Source: an uncultured Gammaproteobacteria bacterium (lineage in GTDB: Bacteria; Pseudomonadota; Gammaproteobacteria; Pseudomonadales; Pseudohongiellaceae). Taken from it: a stretch of 64,000 nt of DNA. Numbering within the stretch: position 1 is the first letter of the stretch; every line of letters starts with the position of its first letter. Location: NCBI GenBank assembly GCA_903853385.1, contig CAINTJ010000027.1, forward strand, positions 62,001 through 126,000, in the 5' to 3' direction. Shown piece by piece: positions 1,942-52,579 of this stretch. A program made the position numbers and the translations under genes. The notes below the pieces were generated by a model. That model saw only the letters and a list, made by a program, of their open reading frames with translations, searched no databases and was not told where the DNA came from.

Positions 1942-3153
1942 CTAATGGGCGGCCCACTGGACTTTGGTAAAATCCACGCCGTCCTTGTACATATCCCACA
2001 GCGGCGACAGTTCGCGCAATTTGTTGACGGCATCATGGAGACGGCCGATAGCGTGATCAATGTCCGCTTCGGTGGTGAAGCGGCCAATCGAGAAGCGCAA
2101 GGAGCTGTGGGCAAGTTCATCGTTAAGCCCCAGGGCTCTCAGCACATAGGACGGCTCGAGACTGGCAGAGGTACAGGCGGAGCCGGAGCTCACAGCCAGA
2201 TCCTTGAGCGCCATGATCAGCGACTCACCTTCAACAAAATTGAAACTCACATTGAGATTGCCGGCAATGCGATGCTCAAGATCACCGTTCACATACACTT
2301 CCTCCAGATCCTTGAGTCCATTAAGCAAGCGGTCTCGCAGCGCTTTCACGCGCACGGCTTCTTCATGCATTTCAAGGCGGGCGATCCGGAACGCTTCACC
2401 CATGCCAACAATCTGGTGAGTGGGCAAGGTGCCGGAACGAAAACCGCGTTCATGACCACCACCGTGCATTTGTGCTTCCAGGCGTACGCGTGGTTTGCGA
2501 CGCACGAACAAGGCTCCTATGCCTTTCGGACCATAGGTTTTGTGGGCGGAAAACGACATCAAATCCACTTTCATGTCTTCGACATCAATATCCACTTTGC
2601 CGGTGCTCTGGGCCGCATCAACATGAAACAGCACTTTCTTTTCACGACAGATAGCGCCAATGGCCTTGATGTCATTGATGACACCAATCTCGTTGTTGAC
2701 GTGCATGATGCTGACCAGAATCGTGTCGGGCTGGATGGCAGCCGCCACTGCTTCCGGATGAATCAGGCCGTTTTTATCGGGTTCCAGATAAGTAACAGAA
2801 AAGCCTTCACGTTCCAGCTGGCGGCAACTATCCAGCACCGCCTTGTGTTCAATTTTGGAAGTGATGATGTGCTTGCCACGGGTTTGATAGAAATGCGCTG
2901 CGCCTTTGAGAGCCAGGTTGTCGGATTCAGTGGCACCGGAAGTCCACACGATTTCGCGCGGATCGCATTTGACCAGGTCCGCCACATGCTGGCGAGCCTG
3001 CTCGACGGCCTCTTCTGCTTTCCAGCCAAACACATGCGATCGTGAAGCCGGATTGCCGAAATTGCCTTCCATGCCCAGGCAGTCAATCATCACCTTGACG
3101 ACGCGAGGATCGACCGGGGTGGTGGCGGAGTAATCAAAATAAATCGGTAACAT
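1942..3153 (-). CDS. iscS: Cysteine desulfurase IscS
   Basis: PLP enzyme that converts L-cysteine to alanine and holds the sulfur as a persulfide. It supplies IscU and also thiolation pathways such as TusA and TtcA, whose genes lie near 36-37.5 kb. The PLP lysine is K205 ([10 protein letters not shown]). The mobile persulfide cysteine is C327 ([10 protein letters not shown]), in the long loop typical of group I (IscS) enzymes. Its 403 residues match the usual 404. It lies between iscR and iscU. Confidence 0.98.
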
Positions 3154-3199
3154 GGCTTTGCTTCTTCGTCTGCTGGGATCAATGGTTCAGATAAATGGT

Positions 3200-3709
3200 T
3201 CAGATAGTAGACACGGCAATGGCATTGGGGTCGCGCCGGCGGGTTTCAAGTTGCTGCTGCTCCTTCTGCAAGGCGCGTTCACTCTGGTTCTGGGCTATCA
3301 GCACTATCTCCCGTTTCGACACCAGGTCGGCCAGCGAGATGTTGGTGAGAAAGTTGTGAATCTGGTCGCTGAGATCCTGCCACAGGTGATGGGTCAGGCA
3401 GGTTTCACCCAACTGGCAGTCGCCCTTGCCCAGGCAACGAGTGGTATCGAGCGATTCGCTCACCGCATCAATGATTTCGGCCACATGGATATCTTTTTCC
3501 GGGCGGGCCAAACGATAACCGCCGCCGGGGCCGCGCACGCTGCTGACCAGCTTGCGTTGACGTAATTTGGCAAACAACTGCTCAAGATAGGACAGCGAAA
3601 TGGCCTGACGATGGGATATTTCAGTCAGGTTGACCGGACCTTTGGAGGCATGGATGCTCAGATCCAGCATCGCGGTGACGGCATAACGTCCTTTGGTAGT
3701 CAGTCGCAT
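3200..3709 (-). CDS. iscR: Fe-S-responsive transcriptional regulator IscR
   Basis: Rrf2-family regulator that binds a [2Fe-2S] cluster. The holo form represses the isc operon; the apo form also acts at other promoters. The 169-residue product has an N-terminal winged helix (MRLTTKGRYAVTAMLDL) and the cluster ligands C92, C98, C104 and H107 in the order typical of IscR. It is the first gene of the isc operon, 46 bp upstream of iscS. Two tandem IscR-type boxes lie in its own promoter (3747-3794), consistent with autoregulation. Confidence 0.97.
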   Translation of the reverse strand: MRLTTKGRYAVTAMLDLSIHASKGPVNLTEISHRQAISLSYLEQLFAKLRQRKLVSSVRGPGGGYRLARPEKDIHVAEIIDAVSESLDTTRCLGKGDCQLGETCLTHHLWQDLSDQIHNFLTNISLADLVSKREIVLIAQNQSERALQKEQQQLETRRRDPNAIAVSTI

Positions 3710-6573: not shown

Positions 6574-8460
6574 CTACTCATGTACCGCAGCATCGGCAAC
6601 CAGATGAATATTGGTGCCAATGGAAATTGATTTCACGTTGTTGCCACCGTACATCAGATTGATGATGGCCCTTGAATACATAATGGCAGTAAACATGGAT
6701 GTCAGGATGCCAAGCGTCAGTGTGACCGCAAAGCCCTTGACCGGGCCGGTGCCGATTGCGAACAGGATTACCGACACAATCAAGGTAGTGACGTTGGCAT
6801 CCACAATGGTGACAAAGGCTTTTTCATAACCGGCATTGATGGCGCGCGGGATGCTCATGCCATTCTCGATTTCTTCACGGATACGCGCAAAAATCAGCAC
6901 GTTGGCATCCACGGCTATGCCGAGCGTAAGCACGATGCCGGCGATGCCTGGCATGGTCAAGGTCCAGCCCACGAGGGACATGATGGCCATCATCAGCAAC
7001 AGGTTGCAGAACAACCCGATGATCGAGGCAAAGCCGCAAATACGGTAGTAACCGATCATGAACACCACCAGCAAGCCCAGGCCCAACAGCACGGATTTGA
7101 TGCCATTGTTGATGTTTTCCTGACCAAGGCTTGGCCCGATAGTGCTCTCTTCCACAAAATGCATGGGCGCCGCCAGTGCACCCGAGCGTATCAGCAACGA
7201 AAGGTCATTGGCTTCTGCATTGCCCAGCCCGGTGATACGGAATTGCCGACCCAACGCCGACTGGATGGTGGCAACACTGATGGCGCGCTCTTCCAGGGTT
7301 GGCTCGGATGTCGTCACCAGCGTACCGTCCGCTTGCGCCTTGGTCACGCTGCGGGTTTTGGTTTCGCGCAAAATGATGGCCATGCTCTTGCCGACACTTA
7401 CGCGAGTGACATCATTCAGCCGTTTGGCTCCGGCAGAATCCAGCGTGATGTTCACTTGCGGCGTACTGGTCTGTGAATCAATTGATGCCTGGGCGCCGGT
7501 CACACTGCTGCCTTCCATGATGACATCCTGGACCACTTTGTAATGCCGGCCCTGGTATTCATAATCCAGGGTAGTGCCGGGAGCGGCCCCGCTGTCAGCC
7601 ACCAGATGGAACTGCAAGGTTGCCACTGCGCTGATAAGGTCTTTGGCACGGGTAGTGTCCTGGATGCCAGGCAATTCGATGATGATGCGGTTGGCACCCA
7701 ACTGCTGGATCTTCGGCTCCTTGACACCGAGTTCGTTGACCCTGGATCGCAAGGTGGTAAGGTTTTGCTGGACCGCATATTTCTGCAGTTCCAGCACGCT
7801 GGCCGGCGACATCGAATATTGCAGGACAAAATCATCGCCGCTTTCGGTGGTCCCCATCACCAGATCAAATTTTGATTTCAGCTTGCTGATGGCAGCAGAT
7901 CGCGTCGCAGCATCCAGGAAACGGATGTTGATACGCTTTTGGCTATCCAGTGTAATCGGCGGGCGGTAACGGATTTTTTCATCTCGCAACACGTTGCGCA
8001 TCGAGGCAATGGTATCGGTCAGCTGTTTGGTAATCGCCTCATCCATGTCGACTTCCATCAGGAAGTGAACGCCACCCTGCAAATCCAGACCATAGGCCAT
8101 CGGGCCGGCATGCAATCTAACCAGCCACGCCGGCGTGGTCGCTGCCAAATTGAGGGCCACAATGTAATTTTTCGGCAATTTGAAATTCACAACTTGCTGC
8201 GCCCTGCTCTGCTGGTTCTGATCATGCAGACGAATCAGCGCGACACCGTTTTTTTCAATTACTGCCCCGAAGAAATCAATGCCATCTTCCTTGAGTGCCG
8301 CTGTGGCCAGGTCCAGCGCAGGCTGATCCATGACCCCGTTGTCATGCGAAATCTGGATCGCCGGATCGGCTTTGTAGAAATTGGGTGCGGCGTAAATCGC
8401 AGACAACACTGCGATCACGATCAGGAAAATGTTTTTCCAGAGCGGGTACTTGTTCAGCAT
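6574..8460 (-). CDS. secD: Protein translocase subunit SecD
   Basis: Partner of SecF in proton-driven preprotein export. The 628-residue product has one N-terminal TM helix (8-26), the GLDLQGGVHFLMEVD motif that opens the large periplasmic P1 domain, and a C-terminal bundle of TM helices with LGIAVDANVLIFARIREE. Length agrees with E. coli SecD (615). It lies between yajC and secF in the usual order. Confidence 0.97.
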   Translation of the reverse strand: MLNKYPLWKNIFLIVIAVLSAIYAAPNFYKADPAIQISHDNGVMDQPALDLATAALKEDGIDFFGAVIEKNGVALIRLHDQNQQSRAQQVVNFKLPKNYIVALNLAATTPAWLVRLHAGPMAYGLDLQGGVHFLMEVDMDEAITKQLTDTIASMRNVLRDEKIRYRPPITLDSQKRINIRFLDAATRSAAISKLKSKFDLVMGTTESGDDFVLQYSMSPASVLELQKYAVQQNLTTLRSRVNELGVKEPKIQQLGANRIIIELPGIQDTTRAKDLISAVATLQFHLVADSGAAPGTTLDYEYQGRHYKVVQDVIMEGSSVTGAQASIDSQTSTPQVNITLDSAGAKRLNDVTRVSVGKSMAIILRETKTRSVTKAQADGTLVTTSEPTLEERAISVATIQSALGRQFRITGLGNAEANDLSLLIRSGALAAPMHFVEESTIGPSLGQENINNGIKSVLLGLGLLVVFMIGYYRICGFASIIGLFCNLLLMMAIMSLVGWTLTMPGIAGIVLTLGIAVDANVLIFARIREEIENGMSIPRAINAGYEKAFVTIVDANVTTLIVSVILFAIGTGPVKGFAVTLTLGILTSMFTAIMYSRAIINLMYGGNNVKSISIGTNIHLVADAAVHE

Positions 8461-8488
8461 GGGAAGAGTCCGGGGTTGCTGTTCGAGA

Positions 8489-8824
8489 TCAGATGGATTT
8501 GAGAGTGCCTTTGGGCAATACCGCTGCCACTGAAGATTTCTGCATTTTCAGCTCAAGATTGTCGGATACCTGCAAACCCACATACAAATCATCCACCTTG
8601 GTGATACGGCCAAGAATGCCGCTGTTGGTAATGACTTCATCACCCTTGCTGAGAGTGGAGAGCAGGCTTTTATGCTCATTGGCGCGTTTGGACTGCGGGC
8701 GCCAGATCATGAAATAGAAGATTACACCAAAGCCGGCCACCATCAGATAGGTGTACATGGGTGAAGGTGCGGCGGCCGCATCAGTTGTAGTCTGGGCCAG
8801 TGCTGAGCTTATAAAGAAGTTCAT
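8489..8824 (-). CDS. yajC: Sec translocon accessory subunit YajC
   Basis: Small inner-membrane protein associated with SecDF. From the ATG at 8824 it has 111 residues: MNFFISSALAQ, one TM helix at about 24-41 (MYTYLMVAGFGVIFYFMIW), and a cytoplasmic segment with RPQSKRANEH and GDEVITNSGILGRI. The frame is open to 8980, but that extension overlaps the end of tgt and is not YajC-like. It is 28 bp upstream of secD. Confidence 0.96.
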   Translation of the reverse strand: MNFFISSALAQTTTDAAAAPSPMYTYLMVAGFGVIFYFMIWRPQSKRANEHKSLLSTLSKGDEVITNSGILGRITKVDDLYVGLQVSDNLELKMQKSSVAAVLPKGTLKSI

Positions 8825-8903
8825 GGGATTACCTAAAGTTCTGGAAAAATTATCGTTATTTTCGACTTTCTGCAGCCGCTTTGCTGGCAACAGGGATGTG
8901 GCT

Positions 8904-10031
<1,128 letters not shown>

Positions 10032-46761: not shown

Positions 46762-47571
46762 TTAAAACACCCGACCCGTAGCCGGGTCCTGGGAGGCTTC
46801 AAGTGCGGGCAGTGCCAAATCGCGCATGTGAGGGCCGAAGAAGACTTGCGGCTTTGATGAAGGAAAATTATTGGTCCGCTCGGTCGAATTGACGCAAGTC
46901 CTGACATCATCCGCCAGCAATCCCCAGTTGTTGTGACGGGGCCAGGCATCGATAAAACACTGATCGAAAAACGTGTAATGCAGGTTGTTGGAGCATCCGA
47001 AAGAGGGCAAGTTGGCAGCGCTCGCAGACATCACAATCCGCTCCTCGCGGGTAATGCCTGGACGCATATAGGTACCGCTAAAACAGGCGGAAACCACCAG
47101 GATCGTCGGCCGTCCCGCGCACGGGTTCAGCATTGACTCCAAGCGCGAAGGGCGTACGAAATACTGGGGGGTATCTGCCGACATCGCAATGCCGTCCGGC
47201 GAGCCATGCCCGGTCAGATAAACCAGGCAACCCTCACCCTCCTGCGGACTGAGCATGGCCAGCGAACGCTCCAGTCCCTGCAAACCGCTGGCCAGCCACC
47301 GTTTGTCTGCGCTGGCATGCAGTTCTGTGAAGGAAGCAATATCACTATGACCTTTGAGCACCTGGGCAAAATCATTGACGAAGTTATCAAAGACGTTTTG
47401 CTCATTGCCCACTGCGGCCAGCACCACATGCCAACGTGTGGCGCTGTGTGCTGTCTGCGCCGCCACTGGCACGCCACTGTCCGCCTGCGCAAATAGACCG
47501 TCGCTCGGCGCTGCACCCGCGCCAGCAGCCAGCGACGCAGACAATATCAATAATATCAGGACAGTTTTCAT
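46762..47571 (-). CDS. Secreted C13-family (legumain-like) cysteine peptidase
   Basis: Predicted exported cysteine peptidase of clan CD, C13-like. Signal peptide about 1-20 (VLILLILSASLAAGAGA/A). The fold hallmarks are a hydrophobic strand followed by the catalytic His122 (LVYLTGHGSPDG), then the catalytic Cys163 after a second strand (ILVVSACFSGTY). Further cysteines at 151, 193, 205 and 226 could form disulfides in the periplasm. At 269 residues it is a minimal catalytic domain. Substrate unknown. It lies 59 bp downstream of the aldehyde dehydrogenase and 220 bp upstream of fusA, on the same strand. Confidence 0.8.
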   Translation of the reverse strand: MKTVLILLILSASLAAGAGAAPSDGLFAQADSGVPVAAQTAHSATRWHVVLAAVGNEQNVFDNFVNDFAQVLKGHSDIASFTELHASADKRWLASGLQGLERSLAMLSPQEGEGCLVYLTGHGSPDGIAMSADTPQYFVRPSRLESMLNPCAGRPTILVVSACFSGTYMRPGITREERIVMSASAANLPSFGCSNNLHYTFFDQCFIDAWPRHNNWGLLADDVRTCVNSTERTNNFPSSKPQVFFGPHMRDLALPALEASQDPATGRVF

Positions 47572-47630: not shown

Positions 47631-49112
47631 TTATCTAGGATAAAACACCGGAATCTTCGCATCGATGTTAACCCACACTGATTTCGGTTCGGTATATTCA
47701 TGCATCGCGAAATGACCCATTTCACGGCCATAACCGGAGTCCTTGACGCCACCAAACGGTGAACCCGGGTGAAAGCGCTTGTAACAGTTGATCCACACCA
47801 TGCCGGCCTCCATGTGGCGCGCCATCAGATGTGCACGTTGCAGGTTGTTGGTCCACAAGCCGCCGCCGAGGCCGTAGATGGTGTTGTTAGCCATCGCCAA
47901 CGCCTCTTCGTCGTTCTTGAAGGTGGAAACCACCACAAACGGACCAAATACTTCTTCCTGACACACGCGATCATTGATGCTTTTTGCCCGCACTACCGTT
48001 GGCTCCACAAAGCAGCCTTTCTGCAAGTCCGTATGGGACGGGGCCTTGCCACCCAGCAGCAGCTCACCACCTTCCTCCTGTGCCACCTTGCAATAGTTGA
48101 GCACACGTTCCTGATGCATCTTCGAGGTCAGCGGCCCCATCTCGGTGGTCGGATCCTGCGGATTGCCAAGCTTGATGGAGGCCGCCAGCTTGAGAAATTT
48201 GTCGAGAAATTCATCAGCGATTTTTTCATGCAGCATCAGCCGCGAGCCGGCGATGCATGCCTGGCCCTGGTTATGGAAAATCGCAAACGCTGAACCGTTT
48301 ACCGCCGCCATCAGGTTGGCATCCTCAAACACGATGTTGGCGCCCTTGCCGCCCAGCTCCAGTTGAATGCGCTTCAGGTTGCCGGCCGATGCCTGCACAA
48401 TCTTGCGGCCGGTGGCAGTGGAGCCTGTGAATGACAATTTGTCGACGCCCATATGCTCAGCCAGATATTGACCCGCGATATGGCCATAACCCGGAATTAC
48501 ATTGATTACGCCCGGCGGGAACCCCACTTCCCGGGCCAGTTCCGCCACCCGCAGGGTCGACAGTGGTGTCAGTTCAGCTTGTTTCATCACCACGCAGTTG
48601 CCGGCTGCCAACGCCGGCCCCAGTTTCCAGCTGGTAAACATCAACGGAAAATTCCATGGCACCACCTGCCCGACTACGCCGACCGGTACGCGCGTCACAT
48701 AATTCAGAAAGCCGGTATCGACCGGAATCACTGTGCCTTCATTTTTGTCACACATACCGGCGAAATAACGGAAAGTGGCCACTGTGCGCGCCACATCCAG
48801 ATTACGGGTATCCCGGATCGGATGGCCGGTATCCAGCGTTTCGATCAGCGACAAATTGTCACGATCTTTTTCAATCGCATCCGCCAGCTTGCCGATCAAC
48901 ACGCCACGATCCGACGGCGACATGGCTGACCACGCGGGAAATGCCTTGCGCGCCGCCGCTACCGCACGATCTACATCCGCAGGCTTGGCCTCCGACACTT
49001 TCGCCAACAGGGAATTGTCATAAGGATTGAACACATCAAAAGTACTGCCATCGAGCGCGTCAACGAATTCGTTATTGATAAACAGCTGAGTCTGAAAAAC
49101 GGGAAGAGCCAT
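47631..49112 (-). CDS. Aldehyde dehydrogenase, probable 4-hydroxymuconic semialdehyde dehydrogenase
   Basis: NAD(P)-dependent aldehyde dehydrogenase, 493 residues. Catalytic residues are E252 (LELGGKGANI) and C286 (NQGQACIAGS); the cofactor site is VVPWNFPL and SFTGSTATG. Position right after the two hydroquinone dioxygenase subunits suggests the HapE/PnpE-type step: oxidation of 4-hydroxymuconic semialdehyde to maleylacetate. Sequence alone would also allow a betaine- or phenylacetaldehyde-type substrate. The product would need a maleylacetate reductase, which is not in the window. Confidence 0.85.
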   Translation of the reverse strand: MALPVFQTQLFINNEFVDALDGSTFDVFNPYDNSLLAKVSEAKPADVDRAVAAARKAFPAWSAMSPSDRGVLIGKLADAIEKDRDNLSLIETLDTGHPIRDTRNLDVARTVATFRYFAGMCDKNEGTVIPVDTGFLNYVTRVPVGVVGQVVPWNFPLMFTSWKLGPALAAGNCVVMKQAELTPLSTLRVAELAREVGFPPGVINVIPGYGHIAGQYLAEHMGVDKLSFTGSTATGRKIVQASAGNLKRIQLELGGKGANIVFEDANLMAAVNGSAFAIFHNQGQACIAGSRLMLHEKIADEFLDKFLKLAASIKLGNPQDPTTEMGPLTSKMHQERVLNYCKVAQEEGGELLLGGKAPSHTDLQKGCFVEPTVVRAKSINDRVCQEEVFGPFVVVSTFKNDEEALAMANNTIYGLGGGLWTNNLQRAHLMARHMEAGMVWINCYKRFHPGSPFGGVKDSGYGREMGHFAMHEYTEPKSVWVNIDAKIPVFYPR

Positions 49113-49223
49113 GTTTGCACCAATGCACTGAAATGGATTGCAGCCTGCGCTGCGGTTTGGATGAAGCCAAATGCGACAAGGCCCGGCAAGCTTGCACTTC
49201 CGGGCCTTGTTTCTTTCAATTGC

Positions 49224-50219
49224 TTACCAGCGTGAAGCTGTAATCGGGAACGGTTCCAATTCCCCTTTGGCGTATTTCTCCTCCAGCCCAGGTGTGCCAT
49301 TCTCCAGCACCATCAGCATCGAACGCTTCGGCGAAAAGCCCTGGTGACGGATATCCGCAGGCATCGCACACACATCGCCTGCCTTCATCACAATACGTCC
49401 ACGTGGATTGCCGGTGTTCTTGTCCTGGATGTTCCACTGGATTTCATCTGTCAATTGAATAAACCACTCATTGCGGTCATTGCCATGGATCACCGGCAAC
49501 ATATGCTCTTCACTGGTCACGCAGCAAATGCAGGCACGCGTGATCGAAGTGAACGATGGATTCCAGGTAACGTCAGCGCGCGCAATATGATCAAACAGAT
49601 TGAACGCATGCACCTGATCTTCAAAGCCCGGTTCAATTTCGATATCCGGCTTGTCAAATGTCATATCAGCAAAGGCGCGATTGATCGGATGGCCTGAAGC
49701 ATCAGAACGCGGCTTGGTATCACCCGGCAACCCCATCATACGACGTGCGGGTTCAAAACCGCGAATCAACGGACCAGCCGCATCGCGGGTTTTGGGTCCC
49801 AGCGGCGAGCCGGTTTCCATTGGTGCACGCAAGGGATCGTAGCCTTCGTTGATCCAGTTGATGGAAATGGTTTCAAACGCTACCCGTACATCATCAGTGT
49901 TGAAGGTTTCCAGAAAATCCACGCCGGTGTCACGATGGCCTTTGCTATAGGTGCCCGCATAGATATCAACCGTACCGTAATGATTCTGGGTACCGAATAC
50001 ATCATCAAAGAAAATCCAGCCGTAGAAAAAGCCCCAGCCAATGTCACGCACCATCGCACGCAGGAAACGGTCGACTTCAACGGTGTGGGTGCCTTTGGGC
50101 CAGCTCACATGCACAAAATACATGTCGCGCTCGAAAGTGAAACTGCCAAACTGGAATTTTTTGTAGCCCAGCACCGGATCGGGTGCTGAAGCGATAAGTT
50201 TTACGCTGGCTATGCTCAT
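49224..50219 (-). CDS. Hydroquinone 1,2-dioxygenase large (catalytic) subunit
   Basis: Iron-dependent ring-cleavage subunit (HapD/PnpD/HqdB type) that opens hydroquinone to 4-hydroxymuconic semialdehyde. The 331 residues match the large subunit size of known two-subunit enzymes. Candidate iron ligands are N247 and E251 (HGNDRNEW) and H292 (ADIRHQG); the spacing N-4-E-41-H equals the Asn258/Glu262/His303 ligand set I recall for PnpD. A cupin-like C-terminal half holds them. It is 39 bp after the small subunit. The assignment is from memory of family sequences plus the ligand spacing and neighbours. Confidence 0.85.
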   Translation of the reverse strand: MSIASVKLIASAPDPVLGYKKFQFGSFTFERDMYFVHVSWPKGTHTVEVDRFLRAMVRDIGWGFFYGWIFFDDVFGTQNHYGTVDIYAGTYSKGHRDTGVDFLETFNTDDVRVAFETISINWINEGYDPLRAPMETGSPLGPKTRDAAGPLIRGFEPARRMMGLPGDTKPRSDASGHPINRAFADMTFDKPDIEIEPGFEDQVHAFNLFDHIARADVTWNPSFTSITRACICCVTSEEHMLPVIHGNDRNEWFIQLTDEIQWNIQDKNTGNPRGRIVMKAGDVCAMPADIRHQGFSPKRSMLMVLENGTPGLEEKYAKGELEPFPITASRW

Positions 50220-50258
50220 GGGAATCCTCTCAGAATATTGAAATATGGGTGACCGGAT

Positions 50259-50750
50259 TTAGTCGAGGACGCAGATCTTGGACCAGCGCTCCACACTTTC
50301 AGGGCCGGCTGAAGTCTGAATCAGACAGACTGATGGCTTGATTGCCGACAACTGATAGGCCGCACCTTTGGGCAACAAGACTTCATGGCCGCGCCGCGCT
50401 CGCACTTTACCCATACGCTTGCCTTTGGGCTCACCGTTGATCTTGATGGCACCAGCCTGATGCGTTGGTTTCTGGTCATCGCCCAACTGGAAGAATGTGA
50501 ACTCGATTTCACCATCCATCACGATGGCAAATTCATCGTGGGGAGCGGTGTACCAGGCTGAGGTTCCTTCAGCTCTTACCACTTCGGCAGCATATTCAAG
50601 GTTGGAAGCCACCATCACCCGCTCATAGGGTTTGGCAGCGTTGGCCACTTCGAAAATATTGGAAAAGGCATAGTGGCGCAAATCATCATTGAGATCGATT
50701 GAGCCTTTTTCGTAGGAGTTCAATGACCCTACTTTGGTTTTGAAACTCAT
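50259..50750 (-). CDS. Hydroquinone 1,2-dioxygenase small subunit
   Basis: Cupin-fold partner (HapC/PnpC/HqdA type) of the large subunit. From the ATG at 50750 it has 163 residues (about 18 kDa), the known small-subunit size; the cupin strands are HDEFAIVMDGEIEFTFFQL and RARRGHEVLLPKGAAYQL. GAGGGG-like AGGGG (CAAGAGGGG) lies about ten bases upstream of the start. The frame is open to 51002 inside the PQQ dehydrogenase gene, but that part is not cupin-like. It follows the PQQ dehydrogenase by about 74 bp. Confidence 0.85.
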   Translation of the reverse strand: MSFKTKVGSLNSYEKGSIDLNDDLRHYAFSNIFEVANAAKPYERVMVASNLEYAAEVVRAEGTSAWYTAPHDEFAIVMDGEIEFTFFQLGDDQKPTHQAGAIKINGEPKGKRMGKVRARRGHEVLLPKGAAYQLSAIKPSVCLIQTSAGPESVERWSKICVLD

Positions 50751-50824
50751 GGCATTACCCCTCTTGATTACAATTTTACCGAAAGATGATATGGACAGCC
50801 TCCCGACTTGGCAAGGCTGTTCCC

Positions 50825-52579
50825 TTATGGCAAGGCAAATACATACAAACGATTCTCGGTGCCGGCTTTCAGGCCCGGCAGCAAACGCCGCTGGCTGGCA
50901 GTAGTCACGGAGGAACCGGTGCTGGCCGCCACATATTGCTTGCCGTTCACCGCAAAGCTGATCGGATAACCGGTTAACGACGAACCCAGATTGACCTCCC
51001 ACACCACTGCGCCGGTATTCTGGTCGAACGCACGGAAATTACCCTCGATATCGCCTCCGAACACCAGACCGCCGCCGGTGGTGACCATCGACAGTGCCGT
51101 ACCTGCCATATCAAACTTCCAGGCAGTACGGCCAGTTTCGGCAGAAACAGCAAACACCGAACCGATGCCTTTGGCACCGGCTGCCAGCTTGTCTCGACCT
51201 GAAATGCCATATAACGCTTCCACATCCGGCTTGGCCAGGGTCACAGTGACATCTGAGCAGGTATTCTGCAAACCGTAATACATCATGTTGGTGAGGGGAC
51301 TATAAGCGCCTGCCCACCAGTTTTTGCCGCCGGTCAGGGCCGGGCACACTTCCGCGGTATCGCCCTTGGCGTGAAAGGTGGTGGCTGGATTGACGGTGAC
51401 TTCGCCGGTCTTGCCATCAATGCTGGCCACCACATTCTGCTGGACTGTGGGCCGCGCCCACAGGAACTTGCCTGTTTGCCGGTCCAGGGTATAAATGATG
51501 CCGGTCTTGCCAGGGATGCCGGTCAATACCTTGTAGGTTTTGCCCTTTTCGATGTCAGGGCTGATCCACGCCACTTGCTTGGGATCAGGCGCCACCTGGG
51601 TATCTACCAGCAAGCGTTCAAACGGATGATCCAGATCCCAATGATCCACAATATGCTGGTAATACCAGACGATGTGGCCATTATCCGGATTTATTGCCAG
51701 CGTGGAGTTGTGATAAAGATATTTGTTGTCATTGCCGGCCAGCAGGAATTTGGGGGCCGGCGCTGTCACCGAGGTGCCCATATAGATCAGGTCGAGTTCA
51801 GGATCGTAACTGGCCGTCATCCACGCCCCGACATGCCAACGCGATTCCCACGGCATGCCACCCCAGGTATCAACACCTTCGCCCGGTTTCTGGATGGTAT
51901 TGAGTCGCCATAGCTCTTTGCCGGTATTGGCATCATGGGCAGTGATGACACAGGCGTCAGGTCCGGCACTGGGCATGCAGGTGCGACCGGAAATGACCTT
52001 GCCCTTGATGATCAGCGGGCCGGCGCTTTGCTGAGCCGGATTCTTGCGGTAATCCAGTACCTGCGTCTGCCATTTTTGCTTGCCGGTGTTGGCATCCAGG
52101 CCCACCAGATAATCATCATTGCTGGGAAAAATAATGGTGTCTCCATAGATTCCCAGCGAACGTTTGGTTTCATAGGCTTGCAGGTAGTCGCCAATGTCTT
52201 CCGGAATGGCGCGATGGTGTTCCCACAACTGTTCACCGGTCGCGGCATTATGGGCACTGACCACATCGCCTGGATGCGGCATGTAAAGAGTGCCGTCATA
52301 GACCAGCGGCGTACCTTCCTGGATTGAGCCTTTGTGGAGCGGGATGCTCCAGGCCAGTTTCAATTGCTTGACATTCTTGCTGGTGATTTGCTTGAGCGGA
52401 CTATAACCCCAGGAGTTCAGGGTGCGCCGCCACATCAACCAGTCAGCATCGGCCGGGTTTACCAGCATTGCATCGTTTACCGGCACAAACGCGTGCTTTT
52501 GTGCTTGCACATCCGGCACCATTACTGTGCAGGCAGCTGCCAACCCAAGCACACACAACACCAGCCTTTTGGATGCCAT
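50825..52579 (-). CDS. Periplasmic PQQ-dependent alcohol dehydrogenase
   Basis: Quinoprotein of the methanol/ethanol dehydrogenase family: eight-bladed propeller using PQQ and a divalent metal, passing electrons to a separate cytochrome c. Signal peptide about 1-26 (VPDVQA/Q). The 584-residue product has the N-terminal family signature (DWLMWRRTLNSWGYSPL) and repeated W-motifs such as NAATGEQLWE, DANTGKQKW, DANTGKELW and DRQTGKFLW. The catalytic Asp region is DHWDLDHPF (312-320). The usual adjacent-Cys disulfide of MDH/EDH is not seen, and there is no C-terminal CxxCH cytochrome domain. The ATG at 52579 has AGGGG at 52590-52586. First gene of the leftward hydroquinone cluster, divergent from rapA. 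Confidence 0.85.
   Translation of the reverse strand: MASKRLVLCVLGLAAACTVMVPDVQAQKHAFVPVNDAMLVNPADADWLMWRRTLNSWGYSPLKQITSKNVKQLKLAWSIPLHKGSIQEGTPLVYDGTLYMPHPGDVVSAHNAATGEQLWEHHRAIPEDIGDYLQAYETKRSLGIYGDTIIFPSNDDYLVGLDANTGKQKWQTQVLDYRKNPAQQSAGPLIIKGKVISGRTCMPSAGPDACVITAHDANTGKELWRLNTIQKPGEGVDTWGGMPWESRWHVGAWMTASYDPELDLIYMGTSVTAPAPKFLLAGNDNKYLYHNSTLAINPDNGHIVWYYQHIVDHWDLDHPFERLLVDTQVAPDPKQVAWISPDIEKGKTYKVLTGIPGKTGIIYTLDRQTGKFLWARPTVQQNVVASIDGKTGEVTVNPATTFHAKGDTAEVCPALTGGKNWWAGAYSPLTNMMYYGLQNTCSDVTVTLAKPDVEALYGISGRDKLAAGAKGIGSVFAVSAETGRTAWKFDMAGTALSMVTTGGGLVFGGDIEGNFRAFDQNTGAVVWEVNLGSSLTGYPISFAVNGKQYVAASTGSSVTTASQRRLLPGLKAGTENRLYVFALP

Follow-up and report, generated by a model that had tools for sequence, protein, structure and literature searches.

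A distinct clade of putative hydroquinone dioxygenase, mostly found without maleylacetate reductase, is preceded by a sorbose-dehydrogenase-type quinoprotein in an uncultured gammaproteobacterium

The gene cluster described here lies in a stretch of 64,000 nucleotides (C27:62001-126000, on contig CAINTJ010000027.1; hereafter the window) from an uncultured gammaproteobacterium of the family Pseudohongiellaceae, whose genome (G000; 2.95 Mb in 143 contigs) is rated 100% complete. Four genes follow one another on the minus strand, encoding a quinoprotein dehydrogenase of the pyrroloquinoline quinone (PQQ) type (50825-52579, 584 aa), the small (50259-50750, 163 aa) and the large, iron-binding (49224-50219, 331 aa) subunits of a predicted two-component hydroquinone 1,2-dioxygenase and a predicted 4-hydroxymuconic semialdehyde dehydrogenase of the PnpE type (47631-49112, 493 aa), with intergenic gaps of 74, 39 and 111 nt in gene order. 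A preliminary description of this DNA had named both dioxygenase subunits next to an aldehyde dehydrogenase (ALDH), with a PQQ dehydrogenase at the head of the cluster, and all four genes were found where it had placed them. For the dehydrogenase and the small subunit, the ATG codons at 52579 and 50750, each following a purine-rich stretch, were preferred by eye as starts; the open reading frame (ORF) program starts the two genes instead at a TTG (52660) and a GTG (51002).

When compared with PDB sequences, the large subunit matched 5m21_B (E 2.1e-113) and 4zxa_W (E 7.3e-112), with a further match of 155 bits to PF18191, and the PnpC/HqdA-like small subunit, for which no Pfam or NCBIfam family matched, found 4zxa_A (E 2.2e-46) and 5m21_A (E 4.8e-42). 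Adjacent genes for homologous small and large subunits are the mark of a two-component (type II) hydroquinone 1,2-dioxygenase, and they are present here. Residues H245, N247, E251 and H292 of the large subunit (positions counted on the alignment) align with H256, N258, E262 and H303 of 4zxa, which we take to be the iron ligands of PnpD, and all four putative ligand residues are invariant in the 15 rows aligned. The ALDH, a PF00171 protein, is closest to 4o6r (E 5.9e-231), deposited merely as 'Aldehyde Dehydrogenase', and then to PnpE (4go4, E 1e-226, and 4go3), its closest named and characterised relative. It keeps the NQGQAC segment of PnpE, and none of the 25 NCBIfam matches listed for it was over the cut-off.

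Named bacterial genomes were searched and yielded at least 572 confirmed candidate loci, the best 80 of which were used; the clade described below may have more members, and the loci outside it are a sample. Among 97 large subunits compared in a tree, that of the window falls into a clade of 32 rows (clade B) with a support of 100/100 and a stem length of 0.79, apart from both solved enzymes; the bootstrap of this tree is not fully settled, and it carries a long-branch warning at L108. The rows of clade B come from gammaproteobacteria, from Erythrobacteraceae and other Sphingomonadales, from Caulobacterales and from one metagenome-assembled genome (MAG) of Stellaceae, and its carriers include cultured Erythrobacteraceae and Sphingobium strains besides uncultured gammaproteobacteria. 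The window large subunit is 52% identical to each of the solved hydroquinone dioxygenases, which are themselves nearest to rows outside clade B (70% and 82%; best B row 56% for each). At 25 diagnostic positions at least 95% of the B rows carry one residue that occurs in at most 5% of the A rows, although at three of these positions (127, 303 and 317) the B residue is present in one of the solved enzymes. N250 of clade B adjoins the putative iron ligand E251, at a place where all 65 other rows have V and 5m21 has C. Judged by the tree and these residues, clade B represents a branch of its own within the known hydroquinone pathway.

The protein encoded by the first gene matches 9m2c, 4cvb, 7wmd and 4mh1 (E 2e-120 to 4.2e-108), its best five PDB sequences scoring 349-406 bits and all others at most 183. 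By this homology it is a quinoprotein of the sorbose-dehydrogenase type. One of the five, 22vi, was deposited as a quinohemoprotein; the haem-c motif CxxCH is absent from the window dehydrogenase, which scores 267 bits with TIGR04528 against a cut-off of 650. Its N-terminus is signal-peptide-like by eye, and the enzyme is probably periplasmic or secreted. Most residues aligned with those of 4cvb that we take to be PQQ contacts are kept. At the catalytic aspartate the protein carries WDLD (residues 314-317), a D-x-D motif of the lanthanide type that is found in all 12 orthologs covering the site, the window included (a 13th is truncated before it), whereas 4cvb, 7wmd and 9m2c carry WDxE there. 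The D-x-D motif is taken as a lanthanide signature in PMC11996626, which describes putative lanthanide-type sorbose dehydrogenases with numerous copies in one genome, chiefly among Acidobacteria and Gammaproteobacteria, and calls the characterised sorbose dehydrogenases rather substrate-promiscuous; with this putative clade the window protein shares both the motif and the many copies per gammaproteobacterial genome.

Across the bacterial family, PF18191 was found in 20 of 137 genomes, and identity together with gene order separates two kinds of cluster. Kind B, that of the window, occurs in 13 genomes of two genera, g1 (which includes the window) and g2, with large subunits 86-98% identical to that of the window; large subunits of kind A are at most 55% identical to it. 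The quinoprotein lies directly upstream of both subunits, on one strand, in all ten genomes whose contigs cover the place, in both genera, and the four genes stand in order in nine of these ten; a PnpE-like ALDH follows the large subunit in 12 of the 13 B genomes. An ortholog of the dehydrogenase (at least 61% identity) is present in every one of the 13 B genomes and in none of the five B-less genomes (G002, G003, G013, G015 and G017), in which nothing rises above 42% to it (Fisher p 1.2e-4, kinship ignored). The dehydrogenase is co-inherited with the B dioxygenase, which bears out the link between a PQQ dehydrogenase and ring-cleavage genes that had been proposed for the window; in being linked to a ring-cleaving dioxygenase, the window protein differs from the solved PQQ dehydrogenases of its type (4cvb, 4mh1, 7wmd, 9m2c).

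Among the 31 B loci listed, 16 hold a PnpE-like ALDH, 11 hold only an ALDH of another type and four (L077, L085, L094 and L100) hold none in the sequence covered, some ALDH being present in 27 of the 31. The 11 loci with the other type are all alphaproteobacterial, and their ALDHs are 71-100% identical to that of L089 and 31-34% to that of the window. The commonest companion of the B dioxygenase is an ALDH, whereas its association with the quinoprotein is lineage-specific. In L087 and L095, further PQQ-type frames are found at a distance of 5-9 kb. The idea that alphaproteobacterial clade B loci generally have a GMC oxidoreductase as a partner was considered and rejected, since such a gene adjoins the ALDH in L089 alone and otherwise was seen in L092, at about 4 kb.

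Maleylacetate reductase (MAR) is the usual step after hydroquinone ring cleavage. The cluster had been described as lacking it, and none was found in the locus or, with a g7 MAR as query, anywhere in the genome of the window; this absence is common in the dioxygenase clade. The same query matches at 45% identity or more in five genomes of genus g7, five of g1 and one of g2 (G004-G006, G008, G010 and G015 besides the five of g7). A MAR elsewhere in G000 was also rejected on the Pfam matches, as the lone Fe-ADH match (25 bits) is AroB. Five of the 13 family B genomes hold a MAR at this level (G004, G005, G006, G008 and G010), and each of them also has an A-type dioxygenase. Of the eight that do not, G011 and G014 hold only relatives of about 31%; five of the eight (G007, G011, G012, G014 and G016) carry an A-type copy too, and the three B-only genomes, G000, G001 and G009, have no MAR. 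MAR accompanies A-type clusters often but not always: of the 17 genomes of the family that carry an A-type copy, 11 hold a MAR at 45% or more, and on this count the notion that it goes with every non-B dioxygenase was rejected.

Outside the family, 19 B genomes, of which the completeness is not given, comprise four with a MAR of 52-56% (L092, L096, L097 and L099), five with distant Fe-ADHs of 32-36% and ten with none, and altogether 23 of the 32 B-bearing genomes searched are without a close MAR. A MAR gene lies inside the locus in one of 31 B loci against 29 of 49 non-B loci among those listed, a comparison that ignores kinship and in which the non-B loci are mostly from Paraburkholderia and Variovorax. 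As clade B is mostly MAR-free, its substrate or its end product may be other than the textbook one. The second gene described as missing from the locus, that of a hydroquinone-producing monooxygenase, was likewise not found in a Pfam scan of 19 window proteins, the rest of the genome not having been searched. For a possible homogentisate-type hydrolysis of the ring-cleavage product, G000 holds a 229-aa FAH-family protein, whose best NCBIfam match, PRK10691, is below the cut-off.

With the pnp clusters of Pseudomonas sp. WBC-3 and Burkholderia sp. SJ98 and the hap cluster of P. fluorescens ACB (PnpCD-PnpE-PnpF; for hap, the gene make-up that we assume), the window shares a two-subunit Fe(II) dioxygenase followed by a 4-hydroxymuconic semialdehyde dehydrogenase. 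It differs from them in that no MAR (PnpF) was found, that no PnpA monooxygenase is among the flanking genes checked, that the dioxygenase falls into a separate clade and that a quinoprotein dehydrogenase comes first. Within the same bacterial family, the A-type cluster L058 (g7) has in common with the window the small subunit, the large subunit and a PnpE-like ALDH, and it additionally holds a MAR, an IclR regulator, a CoA-transferase, a thiolase, a Rieske protein and an intradiol dioxygenase. HqdAB of Sphingomonas sp. TTNP3 (5m21) has the same subunit architecture and iron ligands, with 52% identity in the large subunit, and is closest to a non-B row (70%, compared with 56% for the best B row). 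According to PMC3222310, this enzyme belongs to an alkylphenol pathway and converts hydroquinone to 4-hydroxymuconic semialdehyde, accepting 2-methylhydroquinone (139%) and 2-methoxyhydroquinone (59%) as well, and according to PMC4879640, PnpCD, PnpE and PnpF of strain SJ98 process methylhydroquinone in sequence in vitro.

We lean, tentatively and at a little less than an even chance, towards the four genes forming one catabolic module, with a quinoprotein step, clade B ring cleavage, PnpE-type oxidation and a fate of the product that does not involve MAR. The probably periplasmic quinoprotein, which would have a lanthanide-type metal site and use PQQ acquired from the surroundings, would act on a precursor or conjugate of a hydroquinone and oxidise an alcohol group in it; in the cytoplasm the clade B Fe(II) dioxygenase would open the ring of the hydroquinone, probably a substituted one, to give the 4-hydroxymuconic semialdehyde, which the PnpE-type dehydrogenase would convert to maleylacetate or a substituted maleylacetate. 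The product, not being reduced by a classical MAR, would go to some other reductase, to a hydrolase or to an exporter. Ring cleavage and oxidation to maleylacetate or its analogue are proposed by analogy with the characterised HqdAB and PnpCD/PnpE/PnpF enzymes; we infer the alcohol oxidation, the point in the pathway at which it occurs and what follows maleylacetate. The preliminary description had proposed a hydroxymethyl- or alkoxy-aromatic as the substrate, for which the sequences compared gave no support. A more detailed version of the module seems unlikely to hold in all its parts. In it, clade B would serve a MAR-independent route in which a substituted hydroquinone yields a maleylacetate analogue that is not reduced but cleaved or sent out of the cell; in this genus a lanthanide-dependent quinoprotein, working in the periplasm on scavenged PQQ, would first oxidise the alcohol-bearing precursor.

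A number of observations weigh against such a module. Between the large subunit and ALDH genes lies an intercistronic hairpin on the minus strand (49176-49210), an 11-bp perfect inverted repeat with no T-run on the coding strand, and the 111-nt gap containing this strong hairpin folds with a z of -3.23. In the 74-nt gap, close upstream of the small subunit gene, a motif scan gave a promoter-like match, TTGCCA-17-TATCAT (50786-50814, minus strand), which is weak evidence, the region having 7 such sites with 4.0 expected. Given this hairpin and this site, the four genes need not form one transcript. In G001, which is 99% complete, an amidase-family gene on the opposite strand (L039:1-1122) takes the place of the ALDH, and the idea that an ALDH always follows the large subunit was rejected for that reason. 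Two close B loci, L078 and L080, with large subunits of 89% and 86% identity, have no such dehydrogenase nearby: the quinoprotein was not found upstream within 7.1 kb in L080 (a Nevskiaceae MAG) or within 9.4 kb in L078 (also a MAG), the genomes themselves not having been searched. In L078 an intradiol dioxygenase (7923-9395) replaces the quinoprotein, and a FAD_binding_3 protein (2356-3582) lies a few genes off. The dioxygenase-ALDH trio of L080 (7137-10218) branches in the tree within the window genus and yet has no quinoprotein nearby, which suggests that only the trio was transferred. Among alphaproteobacterial B loci, L086 and L101 alone were seen to have a PQQ dehydrogenase adjoining the dioxygenase, most of the remaining neighbours being unannotated, and since these two loci are 96% alike, the second, different PQQ dehydrogenase found there is probably one event. 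Two of the B-less genomes, G002 and G003, are only 88% and 73% complete. The MAR search would miss a non-orthologous maleylacetate reductase. Moreover, 17 genomes of the family carry a dioxygenase outside clade B and six of them (G007, G011-G014 and G016) have no MAR, so that the absence is not peculiar to B. Finally, G000 holds a split 3-oxoacid CoA-transferase of the PcaIJ/ScoAB families, over the cut-off, so that the product could still be processed via 3-oxoadipate if another reductase took part; the absence of a CoA-transferase, once considered as extra evidence, was dropped on account of this pair.

The supply of PQQ belongs with these difficulties. A pqqC match is lacking in all 17 genomes of g1 and g2, pqqC being over the cut-off in 35 of the 137 family genomes, and pqqE is over the cut-off in none of 17 genomes (15 of g1 and g2, two of g7), with no score above 66 bits where the cut-off is 381, in a search in which no positive control passed. 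The preliminary description had missed this lack of any sign of PQQ synthesis in the two genera. As neither gene was detected, the 'PQQ dehydrogenase' needs imported PQQ or another explanation, and it may be an empty, PQQ-free quinoprotein. Many Gram-negative bacteria that have PQQ enzymes are reported not to synthesise the cofactor and to take it up through PqqU, for which the signature Y/F/W99, R304 and R365 is given (PMC12124388). With E. coli PqqU as the query only weak matches were obtained, in nine genomes, and the three-residue signature occurs in none of the 20 aligned TonB-receptor-like loci, some of which are partial and which include just two of the ten G000 matches. The quinoproteins of G000 are numerous: its 53 PF13360 matches come, by our own grouping, to about 23 PQQ-dehydrogenase-like frames, BamB and three short frames being left out. 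G000 is an apparent PQQ auxotroph rich in quinoproteins.

Much of this would be expected of an ordinary degradation of plain hydroquinone accompanied by gene loss, a doubtful explanation but one to be taken seriously, in which the dioxygenase and the ALDH would yield maleylacetate, an unrelated reductase would replace MAR, a 3-oxoacid CoA-transferase encoded elsewhere would complete the route and the PQQ dehydrogenase, a neighbour inherited along with the locus, would work in another pathway. The PcaIJ/ScoAB-family pair of G000, the non-B genomes without MAR, the possible promoter of the small subunit gene's own and the loci L078 and L080, with dioxygenase and ALDH but no dehydrogenase nearby, all agree with it, and with about 23 PQQ_2 frames in G000 a chance neighbour is not unlikely. 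It agrees less well with an absence of MAR that runs through clade B in gamma- and alphaproteobacteria alike and is not a single loss, with the clade-specific residues beside the iron ligand, and with a dehydrogenase and a dioxygenase that are present or absent together in two genera.

The missing MAR of the three B-only genomes of the family would also suit a role in detoxification and not in growth, in which the module would remove redox-cycling, possibly substituted, hydroquinones and the ring-opened acid would be exported. In genus g2, a sulfotransferase-family gene and then a TauE/SafE-family gene follow the ALDH in all four B genomes (L047, L048, L049 and L050; in L050:5369-6749 the gaps are 11 and 4 nt, and the sulfotransferase-family gene is a PF17784 member), which could be read in the same sense. 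However, neither gene was seen at the g1 loci, the window included, and an NAD-linked oxidation of the product would be unneeded for detoxification alone, so that we consider this role improbable. That clade B cleaves a ring other than 1,4-dihydroxybenzene, for example an aminophenol-like or polycyclic one, its hydroquinone label being inherited from relatives, we consider very improbable; the 52% identity to both solved enzymes, the 25 clade-specific residues and the ALDH of non-PnpE type in 11 of the 31 B loci would leave room for it, but the iron ligands are invariant, the window ALDH is closest to 4o6r and PnpE, and some ALDH accompanies the dioxygenase in nearly all the B loci listed (27 of 31).

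Taking the four genes as one catabolic module, its enzymes are, as far as their sequences tell, of known kinds, and what is new is the way they are combined, a clade mostly devoid of MAR and an apparent reliance on PQQ made by others. In a literature search whose reach excluded most subscription papers, no publication was found that links a hydroquinone dioxygenase with PQQ-dependent enzymes, nor one that joins hydroquinone, maleylacetate reductase and pyrroloquinoline quinone. A supported dioxygenase clade that is mostly without MAR points to a lower pathway that we did not find described, and its link with a sorbose-type D-x-D quinoprotein offers a substrate lead for a putative lanthanide enzyme class, in a genus that gives no sign of PQQ synthesis.

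Around the cluster, the 15 flanking window proteins scanned with Pfam belong to housekeeping or unrelated families, the remaining ORFs of the 55 being judged by eye. A horizontally acquired island was considered and rejected, as the neighbours are housekeeping genes (rapA, an M16 peptidase, ligA, zipA, EF-G and ppnN) and the genes occupy a corresponding position in relatives. Downstream of the ALDH gene, at 46762-47571, lies a gene for a peptidase C13 (legumain-type, PF01650) with a signal-like start, whose sole relative among the compared family loci lies near the G004 locus.

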